A stretch of 64,000 bases of DNA from Lagopus muta (taxonomy: Eukaryota; Chordata; Aves; Galliformes; Phasianidae). The DNA lies in contig NC_064448.1 of NCBI RefSeq assembly GCF_023343835.1, positions 13,609,531 to 13,673,530 on the forward strand. The letters are read 5' to 3'. The notes beneath the pieces are model-generated. The model was given only the letters and a program-made list of their open reading frames with translations, was not told where the DNA came from and searched no databases. Numbering within the stretch: the first letter of the stretch is position 1; each line of letters opens with the position of its first letter. Below, in pieces: positions 24,001 to 51,900 of the stretch. The position numbers and the translations under genes are program-made.

Positions 24001-27000
24001 CCTCTTTCTGTCATGGCTTCGACTTCGGCTCTTGCTCTTTTTTCTCCTGAGAAGATTAAAAAACAACACACCTTCGGTTACACGCGCAGCTCTGGCTCAC
24101 CCCTCCCGTTATTCATCCACATTCCACAGCTCCTCTAACTTAATGCCACGAGCATTAATGTGAAAAGTTGCTACATCCTGCTATGTGTACAAGGACTTTC
24201 GTAGAAGGGGTGGATAAACATCAGGAATCTTAAAATCCACAATGAACAAGATCAAGTGCTCTGCAGCACTTCCTTCTGATCTAATTCTGCGACACCAAAG
24301 GGGGGCAGAGCAGAGCAGGACAACCCCCCCTTACCCTGCTGCTCCTCTGAGTGCAGCTCGAGGCACTGCTGGCTCATGCCCAGCTTTTCACCCAGCAGGA
24401 CCCCCAGGTCCTCCTCCACAACAGCAGCAGGCCATGCTAACATATATGAACACCTGAGTACTTCGATTGAAACTGAAATGAGAGGTCAGAACCACTTCTG
24501 AAATTCAGGAAGCATTATCCTTCTTCCTACCTCAGTTTTAATTTGGGAGCTGGCCAGCGAAACAGAAGCAAGAGTTTTACATATGCTTTAAAAAAACATA
24601 AATAAAACTTCAGAACTTCAAATATTATGATCAGCTGATTTTGATGGGGTTTCAAGTCCATATTATGGCCTTGAAATATAGGCATATTTATTATGAGAAC
24701 TATGTTTACAAAATCTGATGATAAACAGAACCTTAAAGTAAGGCACTGACTAGGTAAGAACTTCAGCAACGCTTCCTGAAGAAAGCATGCTTGCAATCTG
24801 TTTCTGAAAGTTTTCATGTAATTTTAGAAGTTGCTTAAAACAGCTGTTGTACAAAAAAGTCAAAGAAAGACTCAATACTCAGTTGAAAATATGAGTAGCA
24901 ATGAAGATGTTGGGACGGAAAAGGGGAGGGAAGTTGATGTGGAACCCAATATGGAACCTTTTCAAGAAAGCAATCCGATCTTCTGCCTGCACTGCTCTAA
25001 ATTGCTTAAGATTTCACACAAAAGACTTAAATGCACAGCTAAAGATACAAAAAAAATAGGAGATGAATTGTGCAGAACCGCCCAAGTCTGTATTTTTCTC
25101 TGCTGCTAAAACAATACACGTATCCACGAATGTGGTGGTATCACAAGGATGTAACCGCATCCACACAAAAGAAAACTTCGTAATTCCCCCTGCTGCCAAT
25201 GCCAAGCCTTCCCAGTTCACTTCCTTTACCACCAGTGACGTGCACGGCGCATCCCACAGCTCCACCAGCCCGTCCCTCCCACAGCACGAGGGCACTCACT
25301 TCTTGCTGCGCTCCTCGTGGCCGTTGGCACTGCTCAATTTGTTCTCATCCTAAGCAGGGTTGATAGAAGAACATCGTGAGGACGAAGCGGAAACATTTCA
25401 AGTGGTCAAAGGGTAATGGGAATAGGAATAAGAAAATACAAAACAAAAATTTTAATACTAAATTACTTGTTTAGAGTTTAACGTGGAAAGCTTTAGATAA
25501 TTTAAGTAGGCATGTTTAACCACTTTGCTGCTTAAATTTAGGTCATACAACTACGAAATACAAAACTTACATCGTTTAAAAGCGTGTATTAAATTGTAGA
25601 TACTTCCTTACATGGTTTAGAGAGTAAGTTATCCTGTAGAATTCAGCACTCAAGTGGTTAAAAGTTATTTCTATAAAACGTAAGAGGAAGCTTCAGGTTT
25701 GTGTGCCCCTCAGACCAGCACCAAGGCTACAGCTCTGCCTAACCCCAGTGGCCGCGCTAGCAGCCAGCCACTATCCATTCCTGTGACCGATGCCATTCCC
25801 GAGATCTTCGCTCATTTTCGTTGAAGGGTTGTAAGAGCTTGATGCCACCTCTGTCACACATCTCGCCCTGAAGCAAACAGGGATTCACACTGCTTTAGTA
25901 ACGTCGACTCCCAAGAAAGTCATCAATAATCCACCAGTCCAGCCTAAACATTCCCTATTTCCATACCTGTTTACATGGAAAATATCCATGTTAAACCAGG
26001 AAACCACAAGAATTTCAACATAACAATTCACAATTTTCTCTTCAAGACTTTATGTAACTACTAAATATTACATGAACTAAATACACAATTTAAAACTTAC
26101 AGTGCTCATTCAAAATTCACGACACGGTTGTAATTAACACTGCAGAACAGACTAACAATAGCTGCTGTATAATTTATATACTCGCTTTACAATTTAATCA
26201 CATGGGTTACATCAGAAGTACAATTCCTAAACGCCTCAAGTTTGATACACGTTACTTGTGAAACCAGTGCTAAAGCATGCACGATGTTAACACTTCACCA
26301 CCACTTGGTGAAAAACAAAAAAGACAGTATTCATTGGCTGCTGGTTTAGGCAAAAGACATCGCTACACTCATCGGTAAGAATTTTGCATCAGAATTGACA
26401 CGTCTTAATTGAACAACTAGGACAGAGGATACAGGAGATTGTCTGGAACGACAGTGCAGACTGTGATACTGTCTTTTACTTGCTAAGAACGGGCTGTTCA
26501 GGGATCCAAGAATTTAGGTAAATTCGTTCACTCAGCAATTGATTTCCACCTGCTCTGTTAAAAGATTAACCACCACCAGCCTTCTGCAGTAAGAGCAAGT
26601 CTCACTTCTTGCCCTCAGCAGACTGTTCAAATATTTACTTGCCATGGGACTGGTGAAAAGGTTATTCTTGGAACCCTGCTGTTTTCCCAAACCACTGCAT
26701 TCACCTTGTTGCTATACCAAACTGGACCTGGCAATTTTAGGAGAGATTTCTTGTTTTGGGGGGTAATTTTTTTTTTTTGGTTGGTTGTTTTTGTTTCTTG
26801 TTTTTATTTTTGTTTTTCTTTTTTTTTTTTTTCTCTTTCTTTTTTTTTAACCTAGGGGACCACGGTACAGCGATACGTCACTCAATTACTACCTTATGAT
26901 TGACAGTTCACACTGGAATCAAAGGTGAATTCATGGGAGTAGAGGTGAGATATCGTTAGGCAAGTCTACAAAGAGAGATAGATGGGCATTTATTCATCAC

Positions 27001-27238: not shown

Positions 27239-27448
27239 TTTTTCAGGACACCTGAAAGAAAAAAAACAATGCAGCTGAGAGGGAGAACCCCAGTGTTGAG
27301 CTCTTGCTTAGGAGTCGTTACTGCATCAGCGCAGTTCACACGTCAGCCTCTCGGCAGCTATTTCCAACAAGCCTGGAATGAAGCTCACCCAGTGAGCTGG
27401 TAAAGAATGTGACACCAAGCAGCAACCAACCACAGCTGAGAACAACAC

Positions 27449-28864: not shown

Positions 28865-30364
28865 CCCAACCACGAGCCCTGTGGACAAGCACCTCAGGAA
28901 TGCTGAGTGCTGCGCCCACACAAATAGGTGTAAAAGCAACAACCATCTTACGGAGGGTTAAAAAAAAAGAAAAAAGCCTTATCACAAAGCATTCAGCCAC
29001 AGGACTTACTGTTCCAAACAAAGAAAAAGCCACATGCTGTGTTCAAACAAAAAGTTTATAGAAAAGACTTTTCATTAAACAAAGACACCCCTCGTGACCC
29101 TGCGCCACAACCAGCAGAGGACACAGAGGGAAGTGTTGCTCCACCACAGCCCTCTATTCCTACTTGTTCTGGGCTGTGTGCTGTCAGGCAGAGCCACAGG
29201 CAGTGCATGAGGTTATGGAGACCTTTGGCCTCAGCCCGTGCAATTGTACAATTCGTAAGCAGTGCAATACTGGTGTCATAGAACGCTTCCAACAACGTAC
29301 ATTCTCCTTCTCTAACACACAGACCCACTGACTCCACAATTCCAGCCAGAAACCAAAACATACATAGCTATTTTTCTGGTAAAAAAATCACAGATAATTC
29401 ATAAATTTTAAATTTAAATCGTAACAGATTTCCAAATATTCTTCATTAAACAGCAAAAAACCGTAAAAGGCTACTTATAAAAGGCTTCATTGTTTTTGTT
29501 TTGTTTGTTTTTTTAAAGGAAAATAAAAGCTTTGTATGCTTGAATCATTGGAGAAAGAAAAAAATAGGAATGAATTATACTTGAGACTTCCACAGTCAAC
29601 AAGAAGCCTAAAAGAACGTAAGATTTACTACTGCTGACTTCATCAGTATTTCACAACGTAAATCCATCCCTCTTTACTATACCATCATAAGTAACAAGAA
29701 GTTTAAAATACCAATTCGGTGCGCGTTTTGCTAACAAGAGGCACGGAGAACCGTTACGGAGAGCTTCACCAACCGGGCTACGAGCACAGCTTTGGCCGCA
29801 CGGCGCCCATGCCGCCCACATTCGCACCCCGGCACTTCCAGCGCTCCGTGCGCAGCCAAAGAGGAAGGAAATCGAATTCGGTTCTCAGCGACGCCGCCAC
29901 AAGGCCGAGCCCCGCCCCGCCCCCCCCCCCCCCCAGCCGAGGTCCCGCTCCGCAGCCATTCGGGCCTCAGGGCCGCGCTCAGCTCCCGGCCCCGCGCCTC
30001 GACAGCCCGAAGGCCGCTCCCCACGGGTGGCAGGGCCGGGTCGCACAGCGCCATCGTGGGGGGACTCGGGGAGGGACAAGGCGGCAACAGGAACAGCCGG
30101 ACCCGCCCGCTACGTGGCCGCGGGAGCAAGCCGAGGCCGCACGGCCGGGCCGCGAGACGGGGAGCAGGCCGAGCTCCCCCAGCCCGTGCCGAAAGAACGC
30201 GGGCCGGACGCCGCAGGGAAACCGGCGGCAGGGCCCGAGAGCGCGGCACGGGGCGGCCCTACCGGAGCGAGGAAGCCGCGGCGGCAGGAGACGCGGGCCT
30301 CGTCGCCCCGCGGGCCGGGCCGCGGCTCACCCATTACGCGACCCGGCGCCAGCCCGGCAGTTAC

Positions 30365-30880: not shown

Positions 30881-33756
30881 AGGGATTTAAATTCAGCGCC
30901 GCCATTTTCTTGTGTGGCTCCTTGGGGGGGGACTTAATGGTTGTTGCTGTAGTTTTGTGTCCTTTCTGAGTTACCGGGCCTTGAGGTTGTTTGTAGCGTG
31001 TTTGCAGGAAGGACCCTATCTGATCTCCTGTGAGCTGTCTGTTAGGTTGCCTGTGACCACACTTGAGCTTTAGCGGCCCAAACAGTCCCTGCTCACTTAA
31101 TTGTTTTCACAGTGTTGTTTGTTTTCTTTTAAGTGGGTGTGCTCACTGCTCTCCTGCACCCCGGATGGCAGCTCAGAAGGGTAAAAAGTGTCTTTTGTGT
31201 AAGGTGTTCTATTCTTTACTTTTTCAACAGTGTGCGCATTGGCCTTGTGCTGGTGGCTGCGGGCTCAGAGTCTTTATTTACTTAGAGTCTTTATTTATGC
31301 TGAAGCATCTACGTGATTATCCCTATGAAGTATTCCTGGGTAGTTACAGCTCTGATGTTAAGCTCTAAGTGAGAAAGGTCCTCTCGCAGTCCTTTGTCAT
31401 CTGGGGCCTTTTACCTAAAGAAATGGAAGAGCTTAACTTTAGGAGATAAAAAGGAACTGGGCAAGATAAAGTGGACCCAGGATAGGAGGAACAGAAGCTG
31501 GGAACCTGCAAAGCCAGCTCAGGCTGTTAGAGGACAACTTTAGGCCATACTGCATCTGGTAGATCTTGTCAGCCATCCAAGGTATGCTTCCAGAGAGGCT
31601 GTGAACAGCGACTGATGCAAAGCTTCAGTGGTGCTGTAGCTCTGGCGTCTTTTAATCAACAAAATATGCATGTGTTGCTAGCTGGGAAGTTTTGTTGGCA
31701 AAGTTGCAGGCACACACAGGTGTCTTGTCCAGCTTGAGCCTATTTTTTGTGGGAAAGCCTTGTTACTCCATTTTTTGAGCAAGGTTCTTTAAGAGATTAA
31801 GAAGTGTTACTGTTCCAAACATTTGGTAGAAGTGTAGATCACCACAGTAATGAGTTGAAGGAGGGATCACTGCAAAGGCAAGGTATTTGCCTAGACCCAT
31901 CTCCTTATCTTGTGAATACTATGCAGGCCTGTTTAATTACAGCAAGCAAACTTAGGGAGGAAAAGTTCTCGCAAACTATGCTTGCACACATTGTGGTAGG
32001 GTCAGAGTAAGGCCCCCTGAAGCCCCTCCAACCCAGTTCCAGAATTTTCTAAATCTTGAACTGCTCTTGCACAAGAGTAGGATCATACCTTGATCACAAT
32101 GTTAGAGGGCAGCTGATGAGTATCTGAGACCCTAGACTCATTTCTGGAATGTTCCAAAGGACTCAGCTTCTCCTTAGGAAGAGGAGGGACATCAGCACTG
32201 CTCAAGGATCAACTCTGGCATCGCTGGATCCAAGAGCGGTGACTGCATCTTTCTCTCTGTCCCCCCCCCCCCACCTCTCCTTTCAAATTATGTTGTTTAC
32301 CAGAAACAATATATTCTGTGTAAGCCATTAGACATCAGTATCCAAATATCTGCCTGAATTTGTTACATCAAACAACTTCATGCTTACTTGAGATCCCAAT
32401 CCATCCTTATACATCCTTATACATCCAAGTCCCAGTGTAAGCAACATGTTTTGGCTGACAGTAGCAAGTGAGAATTGCACAAAGGATGTTATATAAACCA
32501 GAGGAGCTCATGACAGTAACTGTCATGGAAAGCGCACAGCCTATGTAAGCTGAGTCCAGCGTAGGAAATCCTGAGCTGTGTCTGTTGCAGCCTGAGAGCA
32601 CAGGAGAAAGCCTTACCTTGTTAATAATATTCTTTCTTTCTTGGGTGAAATGGATGATGGTTGGGGATAGTGTTAGGCTTGTTTATTGTAGGAGAGAGCA
32701 AAATGTGTTGGGCAGGAAGTTGAAGCTGCCAGTGTTCCTTTGTGTCTGGCTCTTCTGATGTAATGACTGACAGTGGCTGTGTCTTCATGGTGTCTGTTCC
32801 TCCCTTTGGCTAAGGGCTCTGACAGGATTCTTCAGGCTTAAGACCAGCAACACCTGGTGGTGTCACTGCTGAACCCTTCTGCAGGAAGCTTTCCCTGGTT
32901 AAGGGATGCCCATATCTGACAGCCTTTTGCCTGCCGTAGACCCAGGTACATCTAAGATTGTTGGTAACCTGGCCTCCTCTTGCAGCTTTTGGCCCAAGCC
33001 ACTGCTGACTGCCATATAGAGTCTGCAAGCACCTTGGGGGCAAATGGTTTAATGGAAAAAGTACGAGTGTCTTGTGAGATGAAGCCTGACTGTCTCAGTA
33101 ATAGTGCTTTGTTTCCCCTGGAAGACCACAAAATGGCACATTCGTATTTACATTTAATTCAGTAATATTCTGGAAGTTTGAGCCAATTCCTCAATACAGT
33201 ACACTGTGGCACTGAGTGGTTTCGTACTGAAGCCAGCAGCAGACAAGCATTAGTGACTGGGCTTAGGGCATTTTTTTCTCTTATGAGTCTGGAACAGTTT
33301 ATAGAGAAGATTTAAACAAACTTTGTCTTCTGAAACTCTTTTTTTTTCCATAGCTAATGGAAATACTTAAACCAATGGGGGGGAGCTACGAACTCAGGTC
33401 TATAGGCTTCCAAATCAGAATGTATTTTATCACGCTGCATGGTGCTGGGCTCAGCAGTGGTGTCACTCGGCTGCTTCTCCTTTCACTGAGACATTTCTTA
33501 GCAAAAGCGTTCGTGGGTAAGGGCCAGGCTGGGCCTGCAAGGGAGGCTTGCTGCCATTCCTGCACTGGGCGCTGCCGGATGCACTGTTTGTGGCACAGGT
33601 CAGCGTGAGAGACATGGAGACAGTGCTACGAGCACCAGTGCCGTTACGGCTGCAAGGAGGCACCGGGGAGGTCCGGAGCAGGAATTCAAGTCGTTCGAGG
33701 ATGCTGTGTGGGTGCTGAGAGCTCTCGCAGTTGAAAACTCAGAAAGAAGCTGAAAT
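30881..33756. other. Intergenic stretch, no gene recognised
   Basis: About 2.9 kb between the RBM39 promoter and the tRNA gene. Open frames are short and match nothing known. There is a C run near 32,261-32,275 and a short duplicated CCTTATACAT near 32,405-32,424. No clear transposon was found. Confidence 0.6.
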
Positions 33757-33763
33757 AAAAAAA
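33757..33763 (-). terminator. RNA polymerase III terminator of the tRNA gene
   Basis: Seven consecutive T on the minus strand, 10 nt beyond the tRNA 3' end, the usual Pol III stop signal. Confidence 0.85.
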
Positions 33764-33773
33764 CGTTTGCGCT

Positions 33774-33845
33774 TTCCCACACCGGGAGTCGAACCCGGGC
33801 CGCCTGGGTGAAAACCAGGAATCCTAACCGCTAGACCATGTGGGA
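33774..33845 (-). tRNA. tRNA-Glu (anticodon TTC)
   Basis: 72-nt intronless nuclear tRNA gene. The acceptor stem TCCCACA pairs perfectly with TGTGGGA and the discriminator base is A. The D arm contains the A box TGGTCTAGCGGTTAGG. The anticodon stem CCTGG/CCAGG encloses TTTTCAC with anticodon TTC at 33,810-33,812. The T arm holds the B box GGTTCGACTCC. CCA is not encoded, as in eukaryotes. All stems pair and a T7 terminator follows, so the gene should be functional. It reads GAA codons. Confidence 0.97.
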
Positions 33846-35547
33846 CTGCATGCTAGGTGTCTCTGCTGCGGCGTCAGCTTCCTGCGCTCTGCCTGCAGTG
33901 CAGTGCCACCTACCGGCCGGGTCCCCGCACTGCTGCGCCGACCGCGCGGGCAGAGAACTGCGAGGACGGCGTGGTGCGGGCCGCACCGCCCCGCCACCGC
34001 GTGCCCGGGGACAGCGATGGCCAGGGCGCTCAGAGTCAGCGCACCTGGCTCACCTCAATCTGCCAGCGTGTAAAACTGCCCCTGCGGTTTGAAAGCTCGA
34101 GTGTAAATAGGAGTAAACAGGAAAAAACAAGTAATAGGGCTGCTGTAATGAGCGCTCTTCGAAACCAGTCCCAGGGATGTACCTGGGCGAGCGGACAGGC
34201 TGCGGAGGCAGAAAGCCGGTCGGTAATAGGCCCCGCGCCGGGTCTCGTGTCAGCGTGCCATGCAGACCGGGTCTGCGATCCCAGCAGGCAGCAGCTGCCC
34301 GGGGAGAGGTGAGCCATTGGTGCTGAGAGGTGGGAGGGACTTCGATCAGAACCGTGCTGGTAAGAGAGCGCTGTGAGACCGGGAACATCGTGGGTGTGAT
34401 CCGGTATAATTGAAAGAGCAGCTACACAGAAATCCCTCCCAGAAGAGCTAATTTAAAAAAAAAAGAAAAAAAAAAGAGTAAGCCAAATGGAGAACATGCT
34501 TGCAAAAGCCTCTTGTTTCACCAGACGCAAAACTATTCTAAGAATAGTCTCAAATGGCCGCAAAGCTTGGCAAAGAAAGATCTGAAATACTAAATTAAAG
34601 ATACAATGCTCTTAAAGATGCAAAGCTGATGCAGACCATGTCTGTTTGCCAGTAAAGAAGATCCCAGTCAAGTTCCAGGCTGTCCAAAGGCTCAGGAGTG
34701 GAATTGCATGTGCCCATGTGTGCAGGTGCTGCTTCCTGCAGGATCAGAGCTGCAGCCCCCGGCCTTTGCAGGGCGCAGGGCTGCACTGCTTCATGCTCCT
34801 GCTTCTTCGGCAGGAGAAGGTTAGAGCCTGTTTCTGTGAGGTCAGTCAGGCTTTGGCACAGCTGTCGCAAGATCTGGGCTTCTGTGCACCAGCCTGCCTG
34901 TCCTCAGCTTCAGATCTGCCTGGGTAAACACATCTGTGCTGCAGATGAAGACACTGTGTTCTGGCCTCCCAAGGGCTGCTCCTTCACCTGGGTGCACTCT
35001 GGTCTTACAGAAAGCTCTCCTCTCCTGATTTGCACCATCCAGCAACAATTTGGGGATCTATATATGGGCCAGCAATGAGTTATTTGCTGGGGTGCTGCTT
35101 CAAGGGATCTGTTGGGTTTCCAGGGGAGCTCTCATGCTCATCCCGCACAACCATGGAGTGCCAGGCCTTGAGGAGGGGCTGGGGCTGGGCTGAGATGCAT
35201 CTGCTGAGAGTAGGTGATGCTGCCCAGCTGCGTCAGGGATGTGTGATGACTGTAGAGAATAGGAGAATTTGCCACCATCAATAAACTTAAAGAACTAAGT
35301 TGTCATTTTTTTATTGCTGTCATAGGACAGGTAGAGAAACTTGGACAACTCAAATGCAAATCTTTTAACCTTTCTTGTTCTTTGACTTTGAAATTCACGT
35401 CCATCACAGTTCCACTGCACTGTGGGTGCTCTGGGAACAGGCCCTGTTTACATGGTCCCATAAAGCAGCTGTGTTCAGAGTTTGCAGGCAGTGTCACTAT
35501 CACCTGCACCTCAGCGTTTCAAACTGCCCTGCTGGGGCATCTGAAGC

Positions 35548-35673
35548 CCCATCCCTGCAGGTGTCTGAGGCCATGGCTGGGTGCTGGGCAGCCTGAGCTG
35601 GGGAGCAGACAGCACACAGCACGGCTGGGGCTGGGGGGGCCTTTCCATCCCAGCAGTGCTGGGATTCTATGAA
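35548..35673 (+). mobile_element. CR1 LINE 3' end fragment, diverged
   Basis: Contains CCCATCCCTGCAGGTGTCTG, then GGCCATGGCTGGGTGCTGGG, and ends GGGCCTTTCCATCCC..ATTCTATGAATT. This matches the CR1 3' consensus blocks with many substitutions and a small internal change. Confidence 0.75.
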
Positions 35674-38367
35674 TTCCTGTCCAGCAGCGCTGTGGGGGCA
35701 ATAGCTCTTCTCCAAAAAGCTTCTGGGGGCACACGTGCTGCTTCCAGCTGGAGTCTCTGCAGAGCTGGCAGCGCCCTTTGGGCTGAGCTGACCATCTGGA
35801 GGAAATGCTGTCAAAAAGCTGATTTTGCTAAGTCATCCCTGTATCACTGCTGAAGAACAGTGTGCAGGAGCAACCGCTTGCACTGACCACACAGGGATCC
35901 CCAGTAAATGCAGATCCTGAAAGCTGGGGAAGGCGATGTGTGCTGGTGTCCAGCTCACTCATGTGGAAAAGAAATGGCCTTCACCCTGTGTAGACTCTGC
36001 TCAGCAGCAGCGAACCCGCCACGGTGTTATCAACACTGCTTTTATTACAGATTCCCAAACACAATGTGGTACAGGCTGGTAAAAGAGAGTTAACTCCATC
36101 CCAGCCAGATCCAGTGCAGCACAGAATACAGTACAAACTGCCTGGGAGGTGACAACAGCTTACACTACCTCTGGTACCAGGCTGTGTGTCAGCTGTGCCA
36201 GCACCACACATCCCCAGCCCTGGAGTCAGACATATCCCCATTGCCAGAAAAGACTCCAGTGCTGTTGTGTCACCAGACAGCTTAGATACTGAGGATGGCC
36301 TTACTGTTGTAGCACCACCTGATCTGGAAAGGCAATCTCTAGTTCAGAAACATAACTTCTCCCTGTGGTTACAAAGTGGAGCAGAGAGTTTGCTGCCATT
36401 CCCAATGGCTTCTACAGGACCATGGCTGGACCATGAGAAAAGATGAAGGATATAGAGCAAACAAGCACTTCTCATGCTCAGTTTAGGAATGTTATCAATG
36501 AGTATTAGTAAACAGGCAGCGTGCAGGCAGAACTCAAGACATTATCTTCAGTGAAATGGATTAACCTCAATTAATAAAAAAAAAAGTTGTCATCATTTCA
36601 ACAAAGGAATATGGTAAGAAGAGCAACTTACAGATACTTCAGTTGGAAACATCTGTAAACAACAAAATGGAGTAAATCTGTCTGTGATGGTGAAGAATAA
36701 CAAGAATAATGGAATAAAACTGAGAATGTGTAATGCACTCCCCTTAGCAGGAAGGGGAATTCTGGATGACGGCTCAGGAGACAACAGGACCAGCAAGAGC
36801 CTCTGCACTCATGGGCATGCTGCAGGAGACCCTATAAATCCCCTTCTTCCTTTATCTCCATAGTTCTGGTGGTGGGACTTTCTGTCCAGGTTTCTTACAG
36901 AAATGGTAGCCCGATTAATTTGTCAAAGGTTGTAAGAAAACAAAACAAGCAAACAAAAAAACAAGGCTGCAGGATTAGCTTCAGCATTTGCAGGTTCTTT
37001 CTGCTCTGTTCTTGGCAAGTACCATCCACAGTATTACATTGCCTGGCACGGCCATCAGCCACAGACGGCTCCGGCAGCTTGTGTAGCCTGGCAGGAGAGG
37101 GAACAGCGAGCTGAAGTGTGATGGGACACCAAGGTCACCACCACTCATGTTGCTACTTGGGTACAGCATTGCTGTTCCCACTGCTAGCCTTGGCCACCCA
37201 CCTCTGGTGGCATCCCCTGCGCCAGGCACTGTACTGCAGCTGGTGCTGGGACTTGTGCAGCCGAGCCACGCACAGTGCTTAACGTCCCCTATGTGGGAGA
37301 GAGAACCGCTGGCTGGCTTGTGTGGTCAGCCCTTAGGGGGCAGATTGAAAGCAGCAGAGCTCTCACTGGGTACAAGGAGGTGTCAGTCATGGAGTAGAAG
37401 TCCCTTAGAAGCTCTAACTGATCTGGTGGTAAGGTGATGCATCTCATTTCAGAAATTTATCTGCTCTGTTCTCTCTGTGCTCCAGCCTCGCAGGAGACCC
37501 TGGGAGTCCTGAAGCAAGGCAGGGCATCTCTGCTGGGGACTTCTTCCCAACCATCATTACCAGAAACTTGAGGGTTTAGTTCACAGAAAGTGACTTGAGA
37601 GCAAGGCTTCCCATCCAATTCTGCCTAGCTTTGGGGCGAGGACTACCAGGGACAGCAGGTTTGGGGGGGCATTCCCACCTCCACCTTCCTCCCCACTTCT
37701 CTCCCTTCGTGTACAGTTCTGGTTTCTGGCTCTGCTCCTCACCCCTGGCACAGTGGTGGCCTTATCATCCAGCCTGGCAGAACACCTCACTCCTGCTTAC
37801 GACCTGTTCAACAAGCTGATGTAGTTCACTCATCTGGACAAAGGAATGAAGAGCAGCAGGAGGAGCAGGACTTGAAGCACAGGGAGTCCTCAGCTCAGCT
37901 ATCTCACCCAGCTGCAGCCATGTGTCCCCTCAAAGGGCCTGTAATCACTGTCTCTGATGTTCTTCCCCTCTTCCCAGTCCCCTGTAAAAAGGCAGAGCTC
38001 TCCCATACTGTGGGGAGCACTTACCCCTGCCAGAGCCCCCTCCGCAGCTTTGCAAGCAGCCAGGGAGCCACAGAAGCAGGAAAGATGGCAGAAACCTCTG
38101 CTCTGTATTTTCAGTAACAGTCTGTTTTAGAAAGCAAGAGAGGAAACAAAGAGCATTTGCTGTTCCATCTGTTTCCTGGTCCCATGCTGCTAAGGTTGGG
38201 TTGCAGCCAGCTGCTGCTATTGCCAATCGGTAACGTGATAGTGTGACTGCTTACTTTGCAAGGGAGCAAAAGATGGTAAGATGGAAAAAATCGGGACAGG
38301 ATGATTTTTAAAAAGCCCCATTGCAGAACATCTGGCTTCTTATATACATTTACATCATGCCCATGAT

Positions 38368-38416
38368 AAAAAAAAAAAAAAAAAACCAACAAAAAAAAAA
38401 CCAACAAAAAAAAAAC
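38368..38416. repeat. A-rich tract with CCAAC spacers
   Basis: A run of 18 A, then CCAAC, ten A, CCAAC and ten A; that is, two copies of a CCAAC-A10 unit following a long A run. Confidence 0.9.
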
Positions 38417-38985
38417 CTGCTGATTGCTGCTTGAAACCACGTATTTTTACAAATGGCCAAACATTTCCAACTAGCTCTTTCCAAGTGACAGTCCTGGGCT
38501 ATTTGATTTCTTCAGTCAGCTTCAAAACACAGCCAGGGTTAATTAAGAACAGGGATGTTTTTTTATTTGCTTCATACATGCTAAGGCCTTTGCTGGAAGA
38601 GGACTCTCACAGTGCACAATCCAGGGAACCTCAGCCATCAGCTGACGCATCCAGGTCAGCCTGGTCCCGTTCAATAAAGGATCTGAGACATTTTATGGAA
38701 GATGTCTGCCCTCCAAAATAATGGAGAATTCACATCTGCTTTGTTCAGTTTGAGCCTCAAGCCTCTCACAGGGAATAAGAAGCACTCTGGTCAGAAGGCA
38801 CCTTTGAAGGGCGCTAACCCAAACCCTCACTTAAGGGAGACCATCACTGATGGTAGATCTGGTCAGCTGTGGCTTTGTGTAGCCAAGCCCTGAAAACTCT
38901 GAGGACGGTAAGCTGTACCCCTGGTGAGCCAAATGCTTTGTCTTGATTACCGGTACAACAAAGAGCTGCCCATGGTGAGAAATCT

Positions 38986-39107
38986 TAGAATCATAGAGTC
39001 ATCAACGTTGGAAAAGACCTCTGGGATCTTCTAGTCCAACCCCAACCCCCCCCCCATGCTCACTGACCGCGTCTGTCTGTGCCACAGCTACAGACCTCAC
39101 CCAGGTG
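38986..39107 (-). mobile_element. CR1 LINE 3' end fragment
   Basis: The plus-strand sequence AGAATCATAGAGTCATCAAC then GTTGGAAAAGACCTCTGGGA and CTTCTAGTCCAACCCCAAC is the reverse complement of a CR1 3' end. It starts with the inverted octamer and fades in a region with a C run at about 39,045-39,055. Confidence 0.92.
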
Positions 39108-41739
39108 CAGCCACTTGAAGAGGTGGTTTGGTGGTTCTTGGAACATTGTGGAGTACTACTGGGTCTTTCATTTTAAAACTGCGCTGCGTTGGCACTTGCC
39201 ACAGCCACCACGAGCCAGAAGGGGAGGGAAAGAGATGAGAGGTAGAGCTGCCTCTGCTGAGATGGGGCCATACAAAGGTGGTTTGCTCCTCTGGCGGGGC
39301 TCTTTGCTCCTACGAGCGGGCCCTGCTCCCCGGGTTAGGCACTTCAGTGTCCAAGGCATTACTTCTTCCTGGAGCCTGCTGGGGCTGCAGCAGAGCAGGC
39401 TGCTCCTGGTCCTGCTCCCCATTCCAGCCCTAGGGTTCTCAGTGTTGAAGAGCATTAGGAGGGGGCAGGAGAGGAGAAAGCAAAGTAGTGTTGTAGCTGA
39501 AGGTGCAGTCCCACCATGCCAGAGAAGCAGAGCAGGTCCTGCAATGGTAACCAGCCACACCAGTGGCTGAGGCAGGCCCTGGGTACAGCCTGCCGGTGGT
39601 TGGGGCAGCAAGGAAGGCCTTTGTGCAAGGTCCTGATGATGTCCTGATGTGCAGTGTTTGCACAGGTCTGTCAGCAGAGCAGCTGCATGAAAAGAGGAGT
39701 GGGTGTACGACTCCTGGCACTGCTTCTTCCACCCAGGAGCAGCAGCTGAAGGAACCATTTGAGCGTGATCTCAGGCACCTGGCTCCTTTTGCAGTTGTTC
39801 AGTGATAGCTGTGGGAAGCGTCCTTCAGCCAAGAATGGACAGCAAGGGGATACCTTGGCCTGGAACCATTGGTCGGACATCTCTTAATTCATCTTGCAGT
39901 AACCCAGTGTTCACAGCCTCACAATTCACAAAGGCTGTTTCTTCCAGTGCCTGGTGGGAAATGTGGTTTCATTACTAGCAAAAGAGCCAGAGGTTCGTAA
40001 CCGTCTGCTCTCAGAGACGCTGTGATGTCTTTGCCACGCTTTCAAAGACCATTACAGACATTTCATGTCTACCTCCTGCTGCTGACAGGGGTGTGCTGAT
40101 GGCCAGCATTGCATCCAGCCGGCCTGATCCCCTGTGCCTGGCTCAGTGCGACCTGCCCACACCACGGGGGGCGACGGGGACCTCCTTATGTTGTTGCACC
40201 AGGCAGAAGTTTTCCTCAGCCCACAAGGCCTGAGCTATGCGAGCCTCAGGGAGAGCCACTGCAGAGGCCCTACAGAAGAGGCATTTTCCCTCAGCTGCTT
40301 GATCTTTCCCCTCCAGGATCTGCCTCCTCCTCCCCGAGCAGCACACACAGCTCACACCCACCGGCGCTCTGTGGCTCTCCCAAAAGTCACACCCTGCCCT
40401 GGCAGCTTGGTGCCCCTGTGCAAGTCCCAGCCTCACTGTGTCACTCCTCCTGGTGTCCCTACAGCAGGGGCTCCAGTGACCTCCCAACCCCCAGCTGCTA
40501 TTTTTAGTCTTCATGAGGCTCCTGCCAGTGCTGCAGTGTCAACCAGACTGCTAACATTTTTACACGCTGACTCTACCTCTACATGAGCCCTCGAACAGAG
40601 GCTGTCAGGCAGCTGTAAGCATTTTCCCAGATTTGCTGTGTCCCTCAGAGGACAGGTATAGCCTTTATTGGCAAAGGCAGACAGCATCTGCAACTCTGCA
40701 ATGAAAGCTGCCAGGTTAACCACATTTTAGAGCTACACCAGAAACTTTCATTCTGAGTGTTAACTCCTGCTTTTCCCCTCTGCTGCTCCACGCCCCAACC
40801 CTGAGTTCGGCTGCCCGCAGCGCTGATCCCATCCTGCCTGCCCCACGGTGCCACCAGGGATGTCCTCAGAGCTGCCGCAGGGCCCCGCTCTCCATGTGCA
40901 CTGAATCCAGCCTGTGAGCAGGCGGCCATGATCTCACTGTCTCTCTATTTGTTATTTACAAGTGCAGGGGGACTTTGCTCAAATGTCTTCAGATTAAGTT
41001 ACTCCAAAGTTATTCGGCAGTGCCAAAACAGCATCAGGGAGGCAGCACGGCAAGGGCTGTGTCTGGTGTGCACTGATGGGCTGAGAGGGGTCACGCCTGG
41101 CCGTGCGGGAGCCCACAGACCCCTCTGCTGGAGGCAAAGCCCACCTGGTGTCTGCCATCTCACACTGCCACGGGCAGAGCCTGTGGAGCTCAGGCACCCC
41201 GAGGCTTTGCCTCCACACGGCGCTGTTCCTCCCTGGAGGGACAGGGCCTTGCCGGCTCTGCTGTGCCACTGGGTGATGTTCTCCAAGTGGTGCTGCCAAG
41301 GCTGTGCTGACTGAGCAGGGCTCAACTCTTTGCAGCACTCCTACTCACAGGATGTCAGAGCTCTGCCTTGTCTCGGGGTCTCTGAGTTGCTGTTGTCAGC
41401 ATGCCGATGGCTGACATGTGCAGAGGCTGTGCTGGATGTTGCTGCACAGCCTTGGCCAGGCTGTTGGGGCTGATAGACACAGAAATCCTCCTCCGGACAG
41501 ACGTGATGTGGCACAGGCCCCATGGACACACATGGCACAGCTCTGCTGTATGGATGCCCCGTCTGACAGCCCGGCAGGGAGCAGCGCTCCGTGGCACCGA
41601 ACCTCTCAACACACAAGGCTTTGCCATTTCCCAGAGGGGATTTTTGTTCCCTCGTGGAAAAGGCACCATCGTTCACAGCGAAGCTTCATTTCACGGAACA
41701 GAATGGTGTCCCACAGCTGATTTTGGGAGACACCGCACC

Positions 41740-42960
41740 CTCGGGCTCCCCATCGCTCCGTGCTGCTGCCAGAGCCCCGCGGCTCCCGCCGGGCCCCCGT
41801 TCTCCCTCAGCAGAGCCTTCTCTCCCCGCTCCATGTCCCCGGGCACCCCGCACCCCACCCGGACCGACCGCCGAAGCGGACGCGCGGGCAGCAGCCGCCG
41901 CTCCCGAAGCGCCCTCCGCCGCCGCCAGGGGCTGCCCTCGGCCCGCGGGCCCCACGGCTGCTCGGGTCCCGAGCTGCGCCGGGTACCGCTGCCCGCCCCG
42001 CCCCGCCCTCGGCCCGGCCCGGCGCGGCGAGGCGGCCCCCAGCAGAGGGACCCGGGGAGCGGCCGGGGGGTCCCGGCGGCCGTGCCGAGCGGCGGGGCGG
42101 GGCGGGGCGGGGCGGCGCGGCGGGTCGGGTTACACATCCTGCCCACTGCGGGCAGAGCCGAGCGGCGGCGCGGGCCATGGCGGAGAGGTGAGTGCGGCGG
42201 CTCCACCTGTTGAGGGCCGGGGCAGAGCCGAGCCGAGGCGCGGGTGGGGGCGGCCGTCCCGTGAGCCCCCGTCCTGCCCTCGGCCGCTCTCTATCGCCTG
42301 TTGTCCGCTCGCGGCTCGTGAACAGGCGGTCCTGGGCTGCGGCCGCGCTCGGCCCCGCGGTGGGAGCTCCGCGGGTTCCGGGCGAGTTTCCTGCCCGGCG
42401 AGGGAGCGGCTGTTGCGCTTCTTGCCGGAGAGGCGCAGCCGGGATCCCGGGGTTCACCTGGGCCCGCTCCGGGCCGCCCTCCTCCCCTACCCCCCGCGGT
42501 GGTTCCGTGGCTGCCCCGAATCGCCCCGTCCCGAAGGTCCCGCGGCCGCGGGGCTCGGCCTCAGTCGGGTTCCGCGGGCCGTGCTGATGCCCCCGCTGTT
42601 GCTGCCTTCCGACGTGACGGGCTCGGAGCGATCGGACGTTCCTGCGAGCCCCGCGCTCCCCAGGGCAGCGGCTCCCGGCTGGCTGCTCGCTCCTCTTTGT
42701 CTGGGGGAGAGAAGGGAGAGCCGTGCTGGCGCGCTGCCCGGCGGCTCGGTGCGAGGCACTGGGAACTATCCGTGTTCCTCTGGAGCGTGAAGTTTTTCCT
42801 CCTCTTTCGCGTCTCTTCCCGCAGCACGCTGTTCCGGTTAGTTAGCAGGGACGTGTCCTGAAGGCATCACGCATCCCCCGAGCGGGGCTGCGGCACACCG
42901 GCAGCCAGCCGGTAGCGCGGGGTTGAGCCCCGCATCTGCCCGCAGCCGTCATCGCCGCTG
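41740..42960. promoter_or_regulatory. CpG island promoter of the ARHGAP39-like gene
   Basis: Very GC-rich, CpG-dense stretch surrounding the first coding exon. It contains five successive GC boxes (GGGGC repeats, Sp1-type) at about 42,091-42,116, some 60-85 nt upstream of the start codon. No TATA box. The long open frames across this island in several frames and both strands are an effect of GC content. Confidence 0.85.
42177..42187 (+). CDS. ARHGAP39-like gene, coding exon 1 (11 nt)
   Basis: ATG GCG GAG AG, followed directly by a consensus donor GTGAGTG. The ATG has a strong context (G at -3, G at +4). It joins exon 2 at 62,016 to give MAESSDWVEIIEPR, which keeps the frame and places the first WW domain at once. 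That junction is inferred: the tiny exon is supported by the CpG island, the start context and the perfect phase, not by a transcript. An unseen exon could lie between, and a different start is possible. Confidence 0.65.
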
Positions 42961-45900
42961 CTTCTGCCTGCGCTGCTGGCGGCGATGGGGCTCGGGGATG
43001 TAGGGTGCTCCTTTTGGGGCACGGACCCCATGGAGTCACGGAGCTCTGGGCCGGCCCAGCTCTGCTCCTCGTGCCGCTGCTCCTGTCCCGTCCCCGCTCC
43101 CTGGCGCGTTGTTTGCCGGGTCGATGCGCTCTTTCCTGTCGGTTGGATCGAGGATCTTTGGAGCGATGCTGAGGTCGGAATGGATCGTAGGAATGCGGAT
43201 TTTGCAGCCAGGTTTTTGGTGGGATAGTTCACATGCCTTTGGTATTCACAACAGGTTTGCTTAGCCGAAACAGATGTCTTGGCCTTAGCTGGAAGCACAT
43301 GAACTGGAGGGAAATCCATGTGTGCTGGCCTAGTGCATTTTGTAACCAGGAGAATTTTATGGCCCTCCTTGTGATGCAAAGGCTGCTTTCAGCCTGACAG
43401 TTACTGGATCTGCAGCTGAAAACCTTGCATAAGACTTGTGCATCTGGTGTGCCAACCAAAGTGCGGAATCTGGTTTGCTTGATGCTGCCCTACTTTAGGG
43501 GCAGATGTGTCCCATTCAGCTTATGTACCTGATCTCAAAAACGTGTGCCCTGCCGCGAGGGTGGAGGAAGGAGAGACTGAGGCTGCTGTGCTGAGCGGCT
43601 CACTCAGGAGGTAAGGAAACCTTGCAAGTTTCTGTGTATTTTGAGCTTCGAGGCATTCCTCTGGGGCCAGCTTTATAGGATCGGGGCAGCTGCCTGCTGT
43701 GATAAACAGGTGGAGGCTCGTGTACCAGAAACGGCTGCTTTTTTTCCCAGTAAAGCTCCAGGGAAGGATCCGGCAGCACTGCTGGGAGACTGAGAGTAGG
43801 ACTGTAAGATCCAAATCGACTCTGATGGAATTGCTTCTATAATGAAAGATAAGGAAGCATCAGCTGCTGTAGGATTCTGGCTTTTTTTGACCCATGAGGC
43901 TTTCCTTGTCTTTTTTTTCCCTTCCTTTTCCCCCAGCACTATGGCTTAATGAATATTCACGAAGAGTTCCTTTGAAGTTGTGAAAAGATGAGTCATGTAT
44001 GTATTTCTTGATAGGTAAATGCGCTGGTAAGCGTGTGGTTTGGTTGCCATTTTACCCCTGAGAAGCAGGCTGTTCAGCTCGGTGCTGGCGTTGCTCAGCG
44101 TGGTTTTGGCTGTTGGAACCGAGGAGCCCCAGGAAGCACATGTGGAGATGGTGCAGAGTGCTGGGCTGTGGGCCCTGCTGGGTGGGGAGAAGGATCGCCC
44201 TGGGTGCCTCGGAGGGCACTTGTTTGGTGGGAAACCTGCAGGTCTGCTGCCCTTTTAATCTGATTAATGCAAGATAAAAAGGATTCTTGCACTTTACATT
44301 CTGATTACAGTGATACTGAAAGTAAGGCTCTTAATTTTGCTGTTAAATCTCAGTATCCTGAGTAATGAGTTTGTTGGAGCTAATTAATTCTGGGTTTAAT
44401 ATGCTTTCAAATACCAGAACTAGACCAGCTTGCGTGGGGTTGTTTCTTTTTCTTTTTGGTGTTGTTTTCCCAGCAGCTTTAATTTAGCAGTGAGTGAAAG
44501 CGCCCGCAGCCCGGCAGCCTCCCAGCACTGTGGGCTGGCTCCTGCGGCAGCGCTCACTTGTGGCTTTGCGGTCGAGGGCTCTTCTGGTTTTGACAGAGCA
44601 TCTGAACCTCCTGCTGATGTTCAGCCCGGGTCCCTGCGCGCATCCTCTGACGGGCTCTGAGAGCCCTGTTCTGCTTCGTGCTCATCTTAGCTGTCTTACG
44701 TAAGCCCCTGAATGAATAAATGTTTTCTCTGTAGTGAGCCGTGACCGCAGGAGAAGCTTCTGCTCCCAGCAGCTTATCCCACGCTCGCCTGCTGGGTGAG
44801 CCTATTCCTGGCTGAGCGCTCTGGTCCCTGCGCTAAGTGAGCCAGGTTAGTAAGGTCTCTGCTTTCTCAGAGATAAGCGCAGGTGTCGGAGGTTATCAGC
44901 AGGCTGACCCCTGCTCCGTGCTGCGGGAGCCGTGAGTGAGAGTGCCAGTGTGATTTGCTCAGGGTGTGGTGGTTTAGGGCAGGGGGTGGAAGCAGGAGGG
45001 TGCTTTCTCTCCAGTGGCTCTGCTGCTGGGCAGGGGGTGGAGGGGGCGCAGGCTGTGCAGGACCGGGTGGTCCTCTGGTCCACGGTAGGGCTGTCCTTTC
45101 CCAGCTCTCTCAGCAGGCCCTGCTGCTGCCCTGAGGGTGGATCTGTTGCTTTGGTGTGTGACTATGCAGATAAAGCCTGGTCTTTGAGAAACACCTTCAG
45201 ACACACCAGACTCTTCTGATGGTAACTAATCAGAAGTTCAAAGGAAAGAAGCAGCATTTCCTCCTTCTCTGTGGTCTCCTTTCCCAGTGCTTCCATTCCT
45301 GTTGTACTACCCCAGTGGCTTCCTTGGTGGGTGATGCAATTAGGAGATGCTAGAAAGCTTTCATCAGGTAAATACGTCAGATTTTGAAGTGTTCTATTTA
45401 GGCTTGAACAGTCCTTTCAGATAGAGTACAATAATTTGTGCCTTGTTGTGACATGTCTCCTTTAAAAAGCCCTCCAGGCGGATTTGAGTAGTTAGTGAAG
45501 CACCTCTTGTTTGTAATAAAAATAAATTCCAGAGCAGACATTGGGATCTGGTTTTAGCTGGATTCCTAGAGGGTTTCCAAGCTCTACTGTTGTAATTTAC
45601 ATATTTGATGTAATTCCTCTCTGTCCAGGTAAGCAGAGAGGCAGTTCACTTGTGCAAAAAGTGGCTGTAATGATCAAGCTGCTTACTGTACCTCTTCAAA
45701 GCTCAGACATGAGCGTCTGCTGAAGTAAGTGCTCCTATTTATTTTTCACACATTTCATGGGGAAGAGTAGTTTTCTGCTTTGTGCGACTTCTTGAAGCAG
45801 TTAATGCTTTCCTCCTTCTCCAAAAACCAACTGAAGCAGCAGACGTGGGGTCCATCTGGCTCACACATCTGGAACTAGACACTCTAGTCAAGAGAAATGT

Positions 45901-48900
45901 GTTCGTGCTTGGTGTTTTTCCTGCAATCGGTCTTTCCCTCGTGGGAAAACCTAACAAATATGATTGTTTGGGATATATTCTCTCATCATAATTACTGTTC
46001 CAAGTGCTTGAGGTTACTGATGTATGGAGTAGCACTGCTTTATATGTCCAGTTGAATGCTGACCAGCAGGTTCCGGTGTAGGGGTTAGCAGGTGTATCCT
46101 GGGTACTGTCCTAGGTGTTCTTCTCTGCACGTGGTCAGCTGGCATTGTTTGGGCTGTGTGATAACCCAGACAGGTTTGGGAAGCTTTTAATGGGGATACT
46201 GAAGACCCAGATCACAAAACTTCTAAAACAGAGGTTTATCAACATCTTTTCAGTCACGGAAGGCAAATAGAGGGCTGATCCTCCATAGAGGAGCCGTGAG
46301 CTGAGCTCTTGCTCATGGAAAGTCTGTCATGTGCGATGAGTCAAGGATGACAGCAAGCACCCTGCTCCCACATGTGCTGTTGCACCTTGGAGCTGGGTGC
46401 TGCTGGGCCCCTCTAAACTGATCTTTTTCTTAGCTGCAGGGTTTATGATCTACTAAGAACAAACAAACCTGCCCTGGGCTTGTTTGTGTGTAACTTGGCA
46501 GATGTGGGATGCTGCCATAAGGCACTTTGCTTTGGCAGATGGGGCCGCTTCCTACCTGGGCAAACAAGGTTGCTGCTTTCTGGCTGGAAACCCATGAGAG
46601 GTGCAGGAAAGATGCAGTGTAGTGGGGTTTTGTGTCTTCTCAGAGGGCCAGTTGCTCTGTATCAGGGATAAAGCAAGAATAACTTCTTCATTCTGTAGGT
46701 CTGTTTTTTGTTTTTTTCTTACGTCTCTGTCACTTGTGATATTAAGAGAAACCCCGTCTAAATTGGAAGCATGCTCAACAAGTCTTCAACCAGGTGAGGT
46801 TCAGCCATGCTGCTGTGTGTGACTGCAGGCATCATAAGGCATTGCACACGACTTTTCACGTGTAGCAGCAGCCAGGACTTGCTTTAAAAGAAGGGTGGGT
46901 TGTCATGAAATTCTTTCAGTAACGAAGTGAAGCCAAGAAAGGAGTTATCATTGGAAACTCGATGTCGAAGTAATTAAGCACAGACCCCGGGATGAAGCGG
47001 TGCTGCACGGTGTTACCTACTCACGGCTGCTGATGACGGCTTTTGGGGCTGCTCCAGCCAATTGCTCTGGCCCAGGTTTGCTGGCTGCAACCGGCTCTTC
47101 TGGTGCCTGTTACTTCCCCTCTTACCCTGCTTGCGCAGCACTGTTCCCCTGGTGTGCATTTGGGGTGGTGTGGGAGGTAACAGGTACCTTGCTGGTTCCA
47201 GCCAGGAAGTGTGGATGACTCCTGCTGCTGGATGGCTGACTGCTGCTATCCAGGCTCCCTTAACGTGTGTTTAAACAGTGGCTCAACTTCCAGCTTTTAG
47301 TTTCAACGTGCTTAGCTTGTCATAAAACTGTAAATGCTTTCTGTAGTGCTATCCTGGTATGCCTGCTTCCTCTTCACAGATATTGTAGTTCTTTGGTTGT
47401 CCTTTGATAACTCCCAATATCCAGCTGTGCATCAGGCACTCTGTCTAGTTCTTTGTTCCCTAGCCATAGTGATTAGGTTTGGGCTCTACTTTTTTTTTTA
47501 ATTATTATGTATTTTTATTTTTTTATTAGTCCTTCTGCTGTTCTAAGCTATCATGAGCAAAGCAACTCTGAGTGTGTTATGAATTCTTGGTGATGAATCA
47601 ACAGCAAGTGAAGAAAGGGATGTGAGGGTGCACAGCCTGGAGCGAGTCTGAGTTCGCTGGGTGCGTGTCTGGCACAAGCAGTGCTTATTGCCTGCCTAAG
47701 GACAGGTGCTGTGTACATCGGATGTGATGGAGTGTTCTCTTAGTGATTTGAACTGTCCTAATGCAATGGGTTGTCCTGTTATTGTGTGACTGACTGGGCT
47801 GTGGTACAGAGAAGGGATGTGAAGGATGTGGTGTTGGGGCTGCAGCTTTGTGTCTGTGTTGGTGCTCTGCTGGCTCTCCCCTTCGGGCTTCACCTGTGAA
47901 GAGTGCTAATAGCAGAGGGTTATGATATCAGCTTGGAAACTCTTGGTACTAGAATAAAGGTACTGTAAATTTCACAAATTGGGTTTTAAAATCACTGAAA
48001 ATGAGGATGGAAAGCCATCGTGGTTCTCCTTTTTGTACTGTGGGTTTAGAAGCTGCTGAGGACATGCCTGGTGTCCTGTCAGCTCTGCTGAATTTGCTAG
48101 AGCTGTAAATTAAAACAAAGTCTTGTACCCCAGTTTGAGGTTTTGGAGACTGAAGCCTTCTCCAAAGAGAAGGGATGGCTCACAAAAGCAAGGGAAAACC
48201 AGCTGCTGATTTCATTTGTAAGCTACACAAGTTTGGGCACGGTTTGGGGGCACTGGTTTCCTTACGGTGCTGGGAATGCAGGGTGCAGAAGGAGCGTGGG
48301 GGAGCAGCTGAGGGGGGTGGGATTAAAGTTGCTGTTCAACCCTGAGCTGAGAGCTTTTCTCTGAAAATGCCAAGTCGTGATCGTCTCCTGTGGTCCCTCT
48401 GTCCTTGTGCCACAGAGGAGACTTCAGGTACTCTGTGGAGACTTGGCCCTCAAATGCCCAAACTCCACTGGAAGAGCGCAGCTCGGGGGTAAAGCTGCTT
48501 TGCTGGGATCTCCTGTTGGAGTGGCTCTTGTTGCTGAAGTGAGCAGGGCTGGAGGAGTGCCGTGGAGGAGGAGATGTCCCCTGAGTCTCTCTGGCTCCCA
48601 CATCTCCTGCCTGGACCTTCCGTGAGTGGCTCTGCAATGCAATGCAATGTCTGCTGGTGCTGCCTGTGCTTGTTCCCCCTGCTGTGCCTGTGTGCTTGTA
48701 CTTTATTTGGTTTTGGAGGGATGAAATCACTTTTGTCTCTGTTTGGATAGGGAAAAGCTTCTGCTCAGCTTTGTGAGCTGTTTGTATGCGCTTGCAATGG
48801 CAGCAGTTTCTCAGTAACTGCGTGTTGTTGGTGCAGGATGAGCTTGCTGAGGGTTAGAGGGAAGCTTTGTCTTTCTCCAAACATAAAGTGAAGATCTCAG

Positions 48901-51900
48901 GCTAAAAAGGGTTGAGAGCTGGGTGACTGCCATACAGCTTGGAGCTAAACACAAAATGTAGGAGTGGGCGACAGAAGTGCTTGTTCCTGCCAGGCTTGGG
49001 AGCTCTGGGCTGCATGCTGGGGTTCAGCACAGTTTCAGGAGATGCTCCCAAATGGGACACTGTGTGTATCTTGTACTCTGGGCGCTGAAATAGAATTTCC
49101 CCACAGCTGGTGGCATCGGCTGCACTGCTGTGTCCTTCCTTGCTTTGGTGCCTGCTGGGAGCAGAGGCCAGGTCCCAAAATGCCAACCACCCCTTGAAAG
49201 GGTGCACACTTAATTAGAACCTCTGCTATTGGCGATAGCGCAATGTTCTTCAAGGTGAACATTTGGGGCTGTTTGGAGCACAGCTAGATTGCTTACAGGG
49301 CTGCTGTAGTGCTGCTTTCCTGCCCTCTGCTCCCAGCTGGTCCTGGGTTGGAAGCTGCACTTTCTGTTGTCTCCTGGCGGGGATTTGATGAGGTTGTAGA
49401 TGTGATGTGAATTAATTAGTTTCCCCCAAACTCTCATTCTGGCGCTGCTCTGTGCCCTGGAGCCCACAGGCAGAAGCTCCCTTCCCTGGGGAGGGCCTTT
49501 CCACGAGCATAGGTGGCCTTGTGCTGCCCGGGGTGTCTGTGCTGGCTGCTCTTGGTGAAGGCAAGGCTGTCTGTGGGCACCCGGGATGGAGGATGAAGGG
49601 AAGTGCAGCTCTGGCGCTGGGGTGCAGCTCTGGTGCTGGGGTGCAGTGGGCAGCCCCATCCCTCAGCTCCGTGCTGAGCAGGAGCTGCGGGAGCACCGGC
49701 CTTCATTTATTTCAAGTCCGCGCCTGCTGAATGGTGACAGAAGACATCAAGAAAAGCAATGAGCAGCTGGGAGATGAGAATCTTCTTTTTTGCTTTGGGC
49801 AAAAATTGATTGGTGACTTTTAAATTCAAAGCTGTCCCTGCCTGAGCCTGCACTGCAGTGTGCTGGCAGCCGGGCTGGCCTCGCAGCTCCCTCAGGACCT
49901 CTGCAAGGAGCCACGTGGGCATCGGCACTGCTCTGTGCACAGCTGTGCTGAGCATGCGGGAGGAGCTCCAGGCTGGGGCTGCTGGTGGTGTGGGGCACGT
50001 GAAGCTGGGGTTGCCAGTGGTGCTGTCCTGCCTGGCCCAGCATCCATGGCAGAAGCTGCAGACGTCTTACTTTGGGCATCTGGGAACTGGGAATGTGGAG
50101 TTACTTCTGGAAAATCGGTGCATACGTGTCCAGGAGCAGCCAGCGTAACTCTAAGCCCAGGGATGTGATGAGCAGCATTAATAAAATTGATGAGACTTGT
50201 CTGCTCTGCCACAGGACTGGCACCCACCCCTGAGTCTGCTAAATGGGGCTTCCTCTCGTGGCAGCCTTGTCAGAGCCCTGGTGCTGGCCTGCCTTGTACG
50301 GCTCTGTCCTGCTGCTGAGAAGCTGATAGGAGTGGAGGTGGTATGAGAGTTATTTGGGGATGGCATTGGCAGCTCAGGAGGAATGGATACCTCCAGTGAG
50401 AAAAGGTCAGATACTTTTTTTTTCCCCATTGAAAAAAGAAAAGGAAATTGGCAGGGGAAAGGACTGGTGGAATGAAAAGGATGTCGGTCAAAAAGGACAT
50501 TCTGTATTCATACAAGATGATAAAACTTCAAATTCCTGACATTCTGTGTGAAGGACAGGTATACGTTGCATAGTGTTACATGTAAAAATAAAACGAGGCA
50601 GGCCGAAATACGACTTCTGAAGAATAAAAGTGATTCATGTTTGTATAGTTGCATCAGAAACCTTTCGGAGACATCGCAGCAGGAGAGCGTGGGAGTCACA
50701 GAAGATAAAGCCATCACAGAAAATCAAAACCACTTTTTGGCCATCTTGACTCCTGTGGAGGAGCTTTGTAGCACAGGAAATTAGAAGCCCTCTGTAAAAG
50801 AGCTGTCTGAGAAGATGTCTTGTGTTGAATATCAATAGAAGTGGCTTTAAAGCAAACGGAGGAACTGATAAGAAGCTAAAGAACACATAGCATTGACTCA
50901 AGAGTGCTGTGGGATCTTAAATATGAAATTGTTGGGATATTTTTGTGGGTATACTGTTCATTAAGTGCCCTCAGTATTGTAGAAATTGATGCTGAAGAAT
51001 GGATGGCGGTTATTAAAGAAGGTGGGAGGCACGTGGCAGGTGGCCCAGCGTCTGCCCACTGCACTGCGGGACAAGGGCTGCAGGAGGGCCGGGGGGCTGC
51101 ACAGCTCTGGGTCTTACCTCAAGTGCGTGAGTGTGTGTGTGTTAAAGAACGAGGTTACTGCAGGCATGGCCAAGTGCAGCCTGCTGGAAAAGGGTATCAG
51201 CCTGCCTGTAAAGGCAAGCCCTTCCTCATGGACCTGCTGGAACGTGGGGATCTTGTGGAGATTTCAGAGAATTGATATATTTGAGTTTTCGAACAGCCTT
51301 TGACACTGTTAGCCACTGAAGACTTGTAAGGAATCGAGCTACTTCAGTGAAGAAGTCCTGTTGTGGACCCAGGATTTGTTAAAGCACATGATGCAGAGGG
51401 TAGGGCTTAGTGGTCGTTCTTTGACATTGCGGGGGGGAGGATGTTGGCAGACTCTTCTGGGATTGGCATCCTCTAGTATCCATAATACAAGATTCGGGGA
51501 AGAGAGGGTATGACCAGATGATGTGCTGTCCTGCCAGCCTGGCGGTGGGTGGGATGGAAGGACAGTTGGGAGCTCAGAGTTCGTTTCTTAAATTCTTGAA
51601 TGGTTTCAGGAAACAGTGTTAAGCAGGAATGTAGATAGATGTGGCGTGTCAGTGTGGCTTTCATAGGCCAAAATTCCAGCCCTGCAATTTCATCAGCACA
51701 TGGAAGGCCATGAGCACACGGCAGGGGTGCTTCAGTGGGAGGCTCTAATGGGACTTCCCATGGGGTTTCAGCCATATCCGGCCTGCAGGGTCTCCAAGGA
51801 ACATCCATCGTGGGATGCTTAGATGAGTAATGAGTTAAAGGAGAGGTTGCAAAGCTTAGGAGTAGGCTGACAGCTTTGACAATGGAGGGAAGTTGCTGGT

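Follow-up and report, generated by a model that had tools for sequence, protein, structure and literature searches.

The window, meaning the whole 64,000 nt stretch of Lagopus muta DNA that was analysed, carries RBM39 on its minus strand. Exons 2, 3, 4 and onward lie in order among the matches listed in a tblastn search with the human RBM39 protein. In PDB, the joined translation of the RRM exons matches chains that bear the name RNA-binding protein 39, with a best E of 4.3e-57. Both results identify the gene as RBM39. Exon anatomy was read on the minus strand of positions 29500–23000. Exon 2 runs from acceptor to donor at 27251–27188, with a CDS of 51 nt (27238–27188, MADDIDIEAMLEAPYKK) that is in phase 0 and ends at a codon boundary. 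Exon 3 follows at 25349–25300 (50 nt, DENKLSSANGHEERSK), and the intron between them, intron 2, is 1838 nt long with a GC content of 38.5 %. Within intron 1, the minus strand at about 27580–27450 resembles a fragment of a CR1 LINE when judged by eye. A window-wide Rfam search at gathering scores returned a single match, a tRNA; a tRNA-Glu (TTC) gene is located at 33774–33845 on the minus strand.

Between exons 2 and 3 lies a cassette of 73 nt (26965–26893, minus strand), separated from exon 2 by 222 nt and from exon 3 by 1543 nt. It is in phase with exon 2, after which it reads TCLTISHLYSHEFTFDSSVNCQS followed by a stop, the premature in-frame TAA at 26896–26894 being one base before the donor. 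The donor itself (26895–26886, AAG/GTAGTAA, with the slash marking the exon end) is weak; it scores 3.78 and ranks 18 of 134 with the weight matrix described below. The premature stop precedes later exon junctions, as the exon 3/4 junction is 51 nt and the end of exon 4 about 246 nt downstream of the TAA. At the 3′ splice site, CTCTTTG is followed by one base (T) and then AG (26975–26966, CTCTTTGTAG), and ACCTTTG is found inside the cassette at 26926–26920. The exon anatomy, phase, stop and both motifs, together with a predicted stem loop, can be read directly from the bird DNA. Soon past the donor, the minus strand contains an A-rich tract (26848–26767).

The two motifs are those described for human RBM39. 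PMC10477243 reports, from knock-down, rescue and minigene experiments, that human RBM39 favours inclusion of exon 2b in the mRNA that encodes it. The motif that confers this RBM39 dependence is CUCUUUG (BS1), placed immediately upstream of the AG at the 3′ splice site, and ACCUUUG (BS2), located in exon 2b, is able to form an inhibitory stem loop, SLi, with the 5′ splice site. The same paper describes a premature-stop cassette after exon 2 with a weak donor, and the bird cassette shares this layout as well as an exact CUCUUUG at the AG and an exact ACCUUUG in the exon that could base-pair with the 5′ splice site. It may differ by the single T between CTCTTTG and AG, as the human motif is described as ‘immediately upstream’.

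The combined layout, BS1 and AG followed by BS2, is rare. Intron 2 has a single instance, against none in 2000 dinucleotide-preserving shuffles of that intron, and across both strands of the window it is found only once, at this cassette. CTCTTTG with no or one base before an AG is likewise present once in intron 2, at 26975; by itself the BS1-AG combination is not rare, being present in 40 of the 2000 shuffles and four times across both strands of the window. A hairpin is predicted between ACCUUUGAUU and AAUCAUAAGGU, with one bulged U, in which BS2 contributes the 5′ arm and the donor is covered; the donor AAGGU pairs with ACCUU of BS2 in this stem loop, a prediction from one sequence without covariation. 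Its stability is −11.7 kcal/mol (z −2.24), equalled in 4 of 200 shuffles. The longer fold, which takes in the whole exon and its 3′ splice site, has an ordinary stability (z −0.47; 63 of 200 shuffles as good), and its centroid retains the hairpin between BS2 and the donor.

A second published description, in PMC6547761, concerns an RBM39 ‘exon 3’, a premature-stop cassette responsive to depletion of RBM39 and of nonsense-mediated decay (NMD). Citing Mudge et al. 2011, that source puts the human–Xenopus identity of this poison exon, numbered 3, at 98.6 %, which makes a bird copy expected. We infer that this ‘exon 3’ and the exon 2b of PMC10477243 are the same exon. A length of 73 nt would fit the quoted identity if it stands for 72 of 73 positions, an agreement of arithmetic rather than a sequence comparison. 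The bird and human exons are likened here by two motifs and layout rather than by the letters of the whole exon, and function in the bird would be analogous to that described for human RBM39. On this basis, 26965–26893 can almost certainly be equated with the known poison exon by which RBM39 limits its own level, the counterpart of human exon 2b.

A literature survey of titles and the openings of abstracts recognised no publication on a bird RBM39 poison exon. Six pieces of 16–17 bases from the poison exon, with both strands represented, had no match in the literature text, and the RBM39 passages in PMC5224494 and PMC13247117 have no bearing on the question. Exact scans found 0 loci for a 28-base core of the poison exon in viral_contigs, for a 22-base core in genome_contigs and for a 23-base core of the segment described next in viral_contigs; vertebrate DNA is not expected in either collection, so these zeros say little.

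About 1.1 kb downstream of the poison exon, in the same intron, is the segment that the earlier note had singled out as the premature-stop cassette (25867–25757, minus strand). Its layout is as had been claimed: an AG at 25869–25868, 36 open codons from 25867 in the phase left by exon 2 (translated as GEMCDRGG...IVAGC) and a TAG at 25759–25757. The acceptor had been called strong; a polypyrimidine tract and AG are present, and its strength is better graded as fair. Splice sites were scored with a simple weight matrix, and the 109 AGs and 134 donors of intron 2 were ranked. The first acceptor in the intron is 25670 (10.28), the second that of the poison exon (9.83) and the third that of the flagged segment (8.37). 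The flagged acceptor exceeds that of real exon 3 (7.24); across nine RBM39 exons (2 to 10) acceptors score from 7.24 to 15.0, and it beats two of the nine. For exons 5 to 10 in this survey, which ends at exon 10, the boundaries are approximate, each being placed at the highest-scoring site no more than 5 bases from the protein match. The nearest listed donor past the TAG, at 25744 (TGGG/GTTAGG, 4.85), is weak. CUCUUUG is absent from the flagged AG, where the upstream sequence is CTGTTTGCTTCAG, and ACCUUUG is absent from the segment; on the minus strand of the window ACCTTTG starts only at 39279, 36930, 30873, 26926 and 15588.

A splice-like start with an open frame of this kind is little above the chance level. 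At least 36 codons are open in the exon 2 phase after 9 of the 109 AGs of intron 2, and in the 2000 shuffles an acceptor of at least 8.3 followed by at least 36 open codons, observed once in the real intron, has a mean of 0.089 per shuffle and is reached in 8.65 % of them. Because so many AGs open frames of this length and because this share of shuffles matches the combination, the flagged site is judged to be a product of chance. Looser cut-offs are met more often, by 17.2 % of shuffles for an acceptor of at least 7 with at least 36 codons and by 55 % for an acceptor of at least 5 with at least 30. With an acceptor of at least 8.3 and at least 20 codons there are two real cases, the flagged segment and the poison exon, a result found in 2.95 % of shuffles. 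The segment 25867–25757 is most likely a chance pseudo-exon.

The main result against pure chance at the flagged site is an excess of strong acceptor-donor pairs in intron 2. There are 5 pairs of an acceptor of at least 8.3 with a donor of at least 7, 40–300 nt apart, where the shuffles average 0.364 and 0.2 % of them reach that count; lowering the donor threshold to 3.7 gives 8 against a mean of 2.011 (3.2 % of shuffles). Of the five strong pairs, four combine acceptor 25867 or 25670 with donor 25612 or 25571, and the fifth joins acceptor 26965 to donor 26705; the flagged acceptor takes part in two of the five. The 25670 acceptor with the same two donors would give exons of 59 or 100 nt in which the frame stops at the second codon, another possible cryptic cassette.

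This excess is what a second poison cassette, specific to birds or to a narrower lineage, would have in its favour. Such a cassette would begin at the 25868 acceptor and end at donor 25744, 25612 or 25571, giving 124, 256 or 297 nt, and if real it would provide RBM39 with two stacked feedback exons, the second with an RRM2-type motif at its acceptor. Apart from the rank of the acceptor, donors 25612 (7.78) and 25571 (7.71) rank 3 and 4 of 134; they are 145 and 186 nt past the TAG. CTGTTTG at 25880–25874, just upstream of the AG, fits the RRM2 consensus, and the segment is slightly raised in CpG and in GC (52.3 %, a value reached by about 6 % of 111 nt windows). However, motifs of the RRM2 type are at chance density in the intron (9 against a mean of 8.7), the fold of 25870–25740 is ordinary (z −0.60), the donor closest to the stop is weak, and the joint frequency of frame length and acceptor in shuffles is that given above. 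A second cassette is therefore regarded as very unlikely.

The GC-richer patch within an AT-rich intron might alternatively have come from a mobile element, or from another gene, as a fragment carrying its own open frame. Yet in searches of the readable parts of the bird’s own genome (1.03 Gb, 165 contigs) the flagged region and its peptide match only themselves, with no second copy. Pfam returned no family for this peptide (nor for that of the poison exon), and Rfam at gathering scores has no match at the segment. An origin of this kind is regarded as highly improbable. That the flagged segment is itself the mammal-type exon, as the earlier note proposed, would agree with the intron, the phase and the in-frame stop but is practically untenable and was rejected, as BS1 and BS2 are both absent there and both present at 26965–26893.

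A paralogue of RBM39 in the same genome served as a control. It is located on a 53-kb contig (C46 of G000) at about 33298–49860, with 74–80 % identity over three RRM pieces, and by inference is RBM23-like. It resembles RBM39 in having an exon 2 counterpart, which encodes DIVIEAMLEAPYKK, and an exon 7 counterpart with 83 % identity. In 20 kb of the paralogue no convincing copy was found of the poison exon (best E 3.2 by blastn with word size 7, 0.64 by tblastn of the peptide) or of the flagged segment (1.3 and 0.011, respectively), in a comparison that could miss distant relics. The best match of the flagged peptide there has 7 of 18 residues and precedes the exon 2 counterpart by about 7.5 kb, and the best match of the poison-exon peptide lies before that counterpart as well.

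Overall, we consider it highly probable that the flagged segment is intron without function whose splice-like start arose by chance, and that the working autoregulatory element is the 73 nt cassette at 26965–26893. The proposal that intron 2 of RBM39 in this bird contains a premature-stop cassette for autoregulation is well supported by the anatomy of that cassette, while the segment named for it is not that exon. The earlier note had the mechanism right but assigned it to the wrong site, and the switch itself is already known from vertebrates.

If the 26965–26893 cassette behaves in the bird as its human counterpart does, it would be bound by the protein, included in a regulated way and followed by decay of the mRNA. 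When RBM39 is abundant, its RRM2 would bind CUCUUUG at the 3′ splice site of the cassette, and RRM3 and the RS domains may help to hold U2 snRNP. With U2 snRNP held, the cassette would be included and translation would end at its TAA; the resulting mRNA would be subject to NMD and the level of RBM39 would fall. The stem loop of ACCUUUG with the 5′ splice site may keep baseline inclusion of the cassette low.

Deep conservation of this switch, between human and Xenopus, is already in print, and the bird exon is a confirmation rather than a discovery. A search for splice junctions at 25867 would probably find nothing, and could wrongly suggest that birds are without the switch. Mutagenesis has demonstrated that the human exon is controlled by elements also present in the bird, a finding consistent with selection acting on the switch itself.
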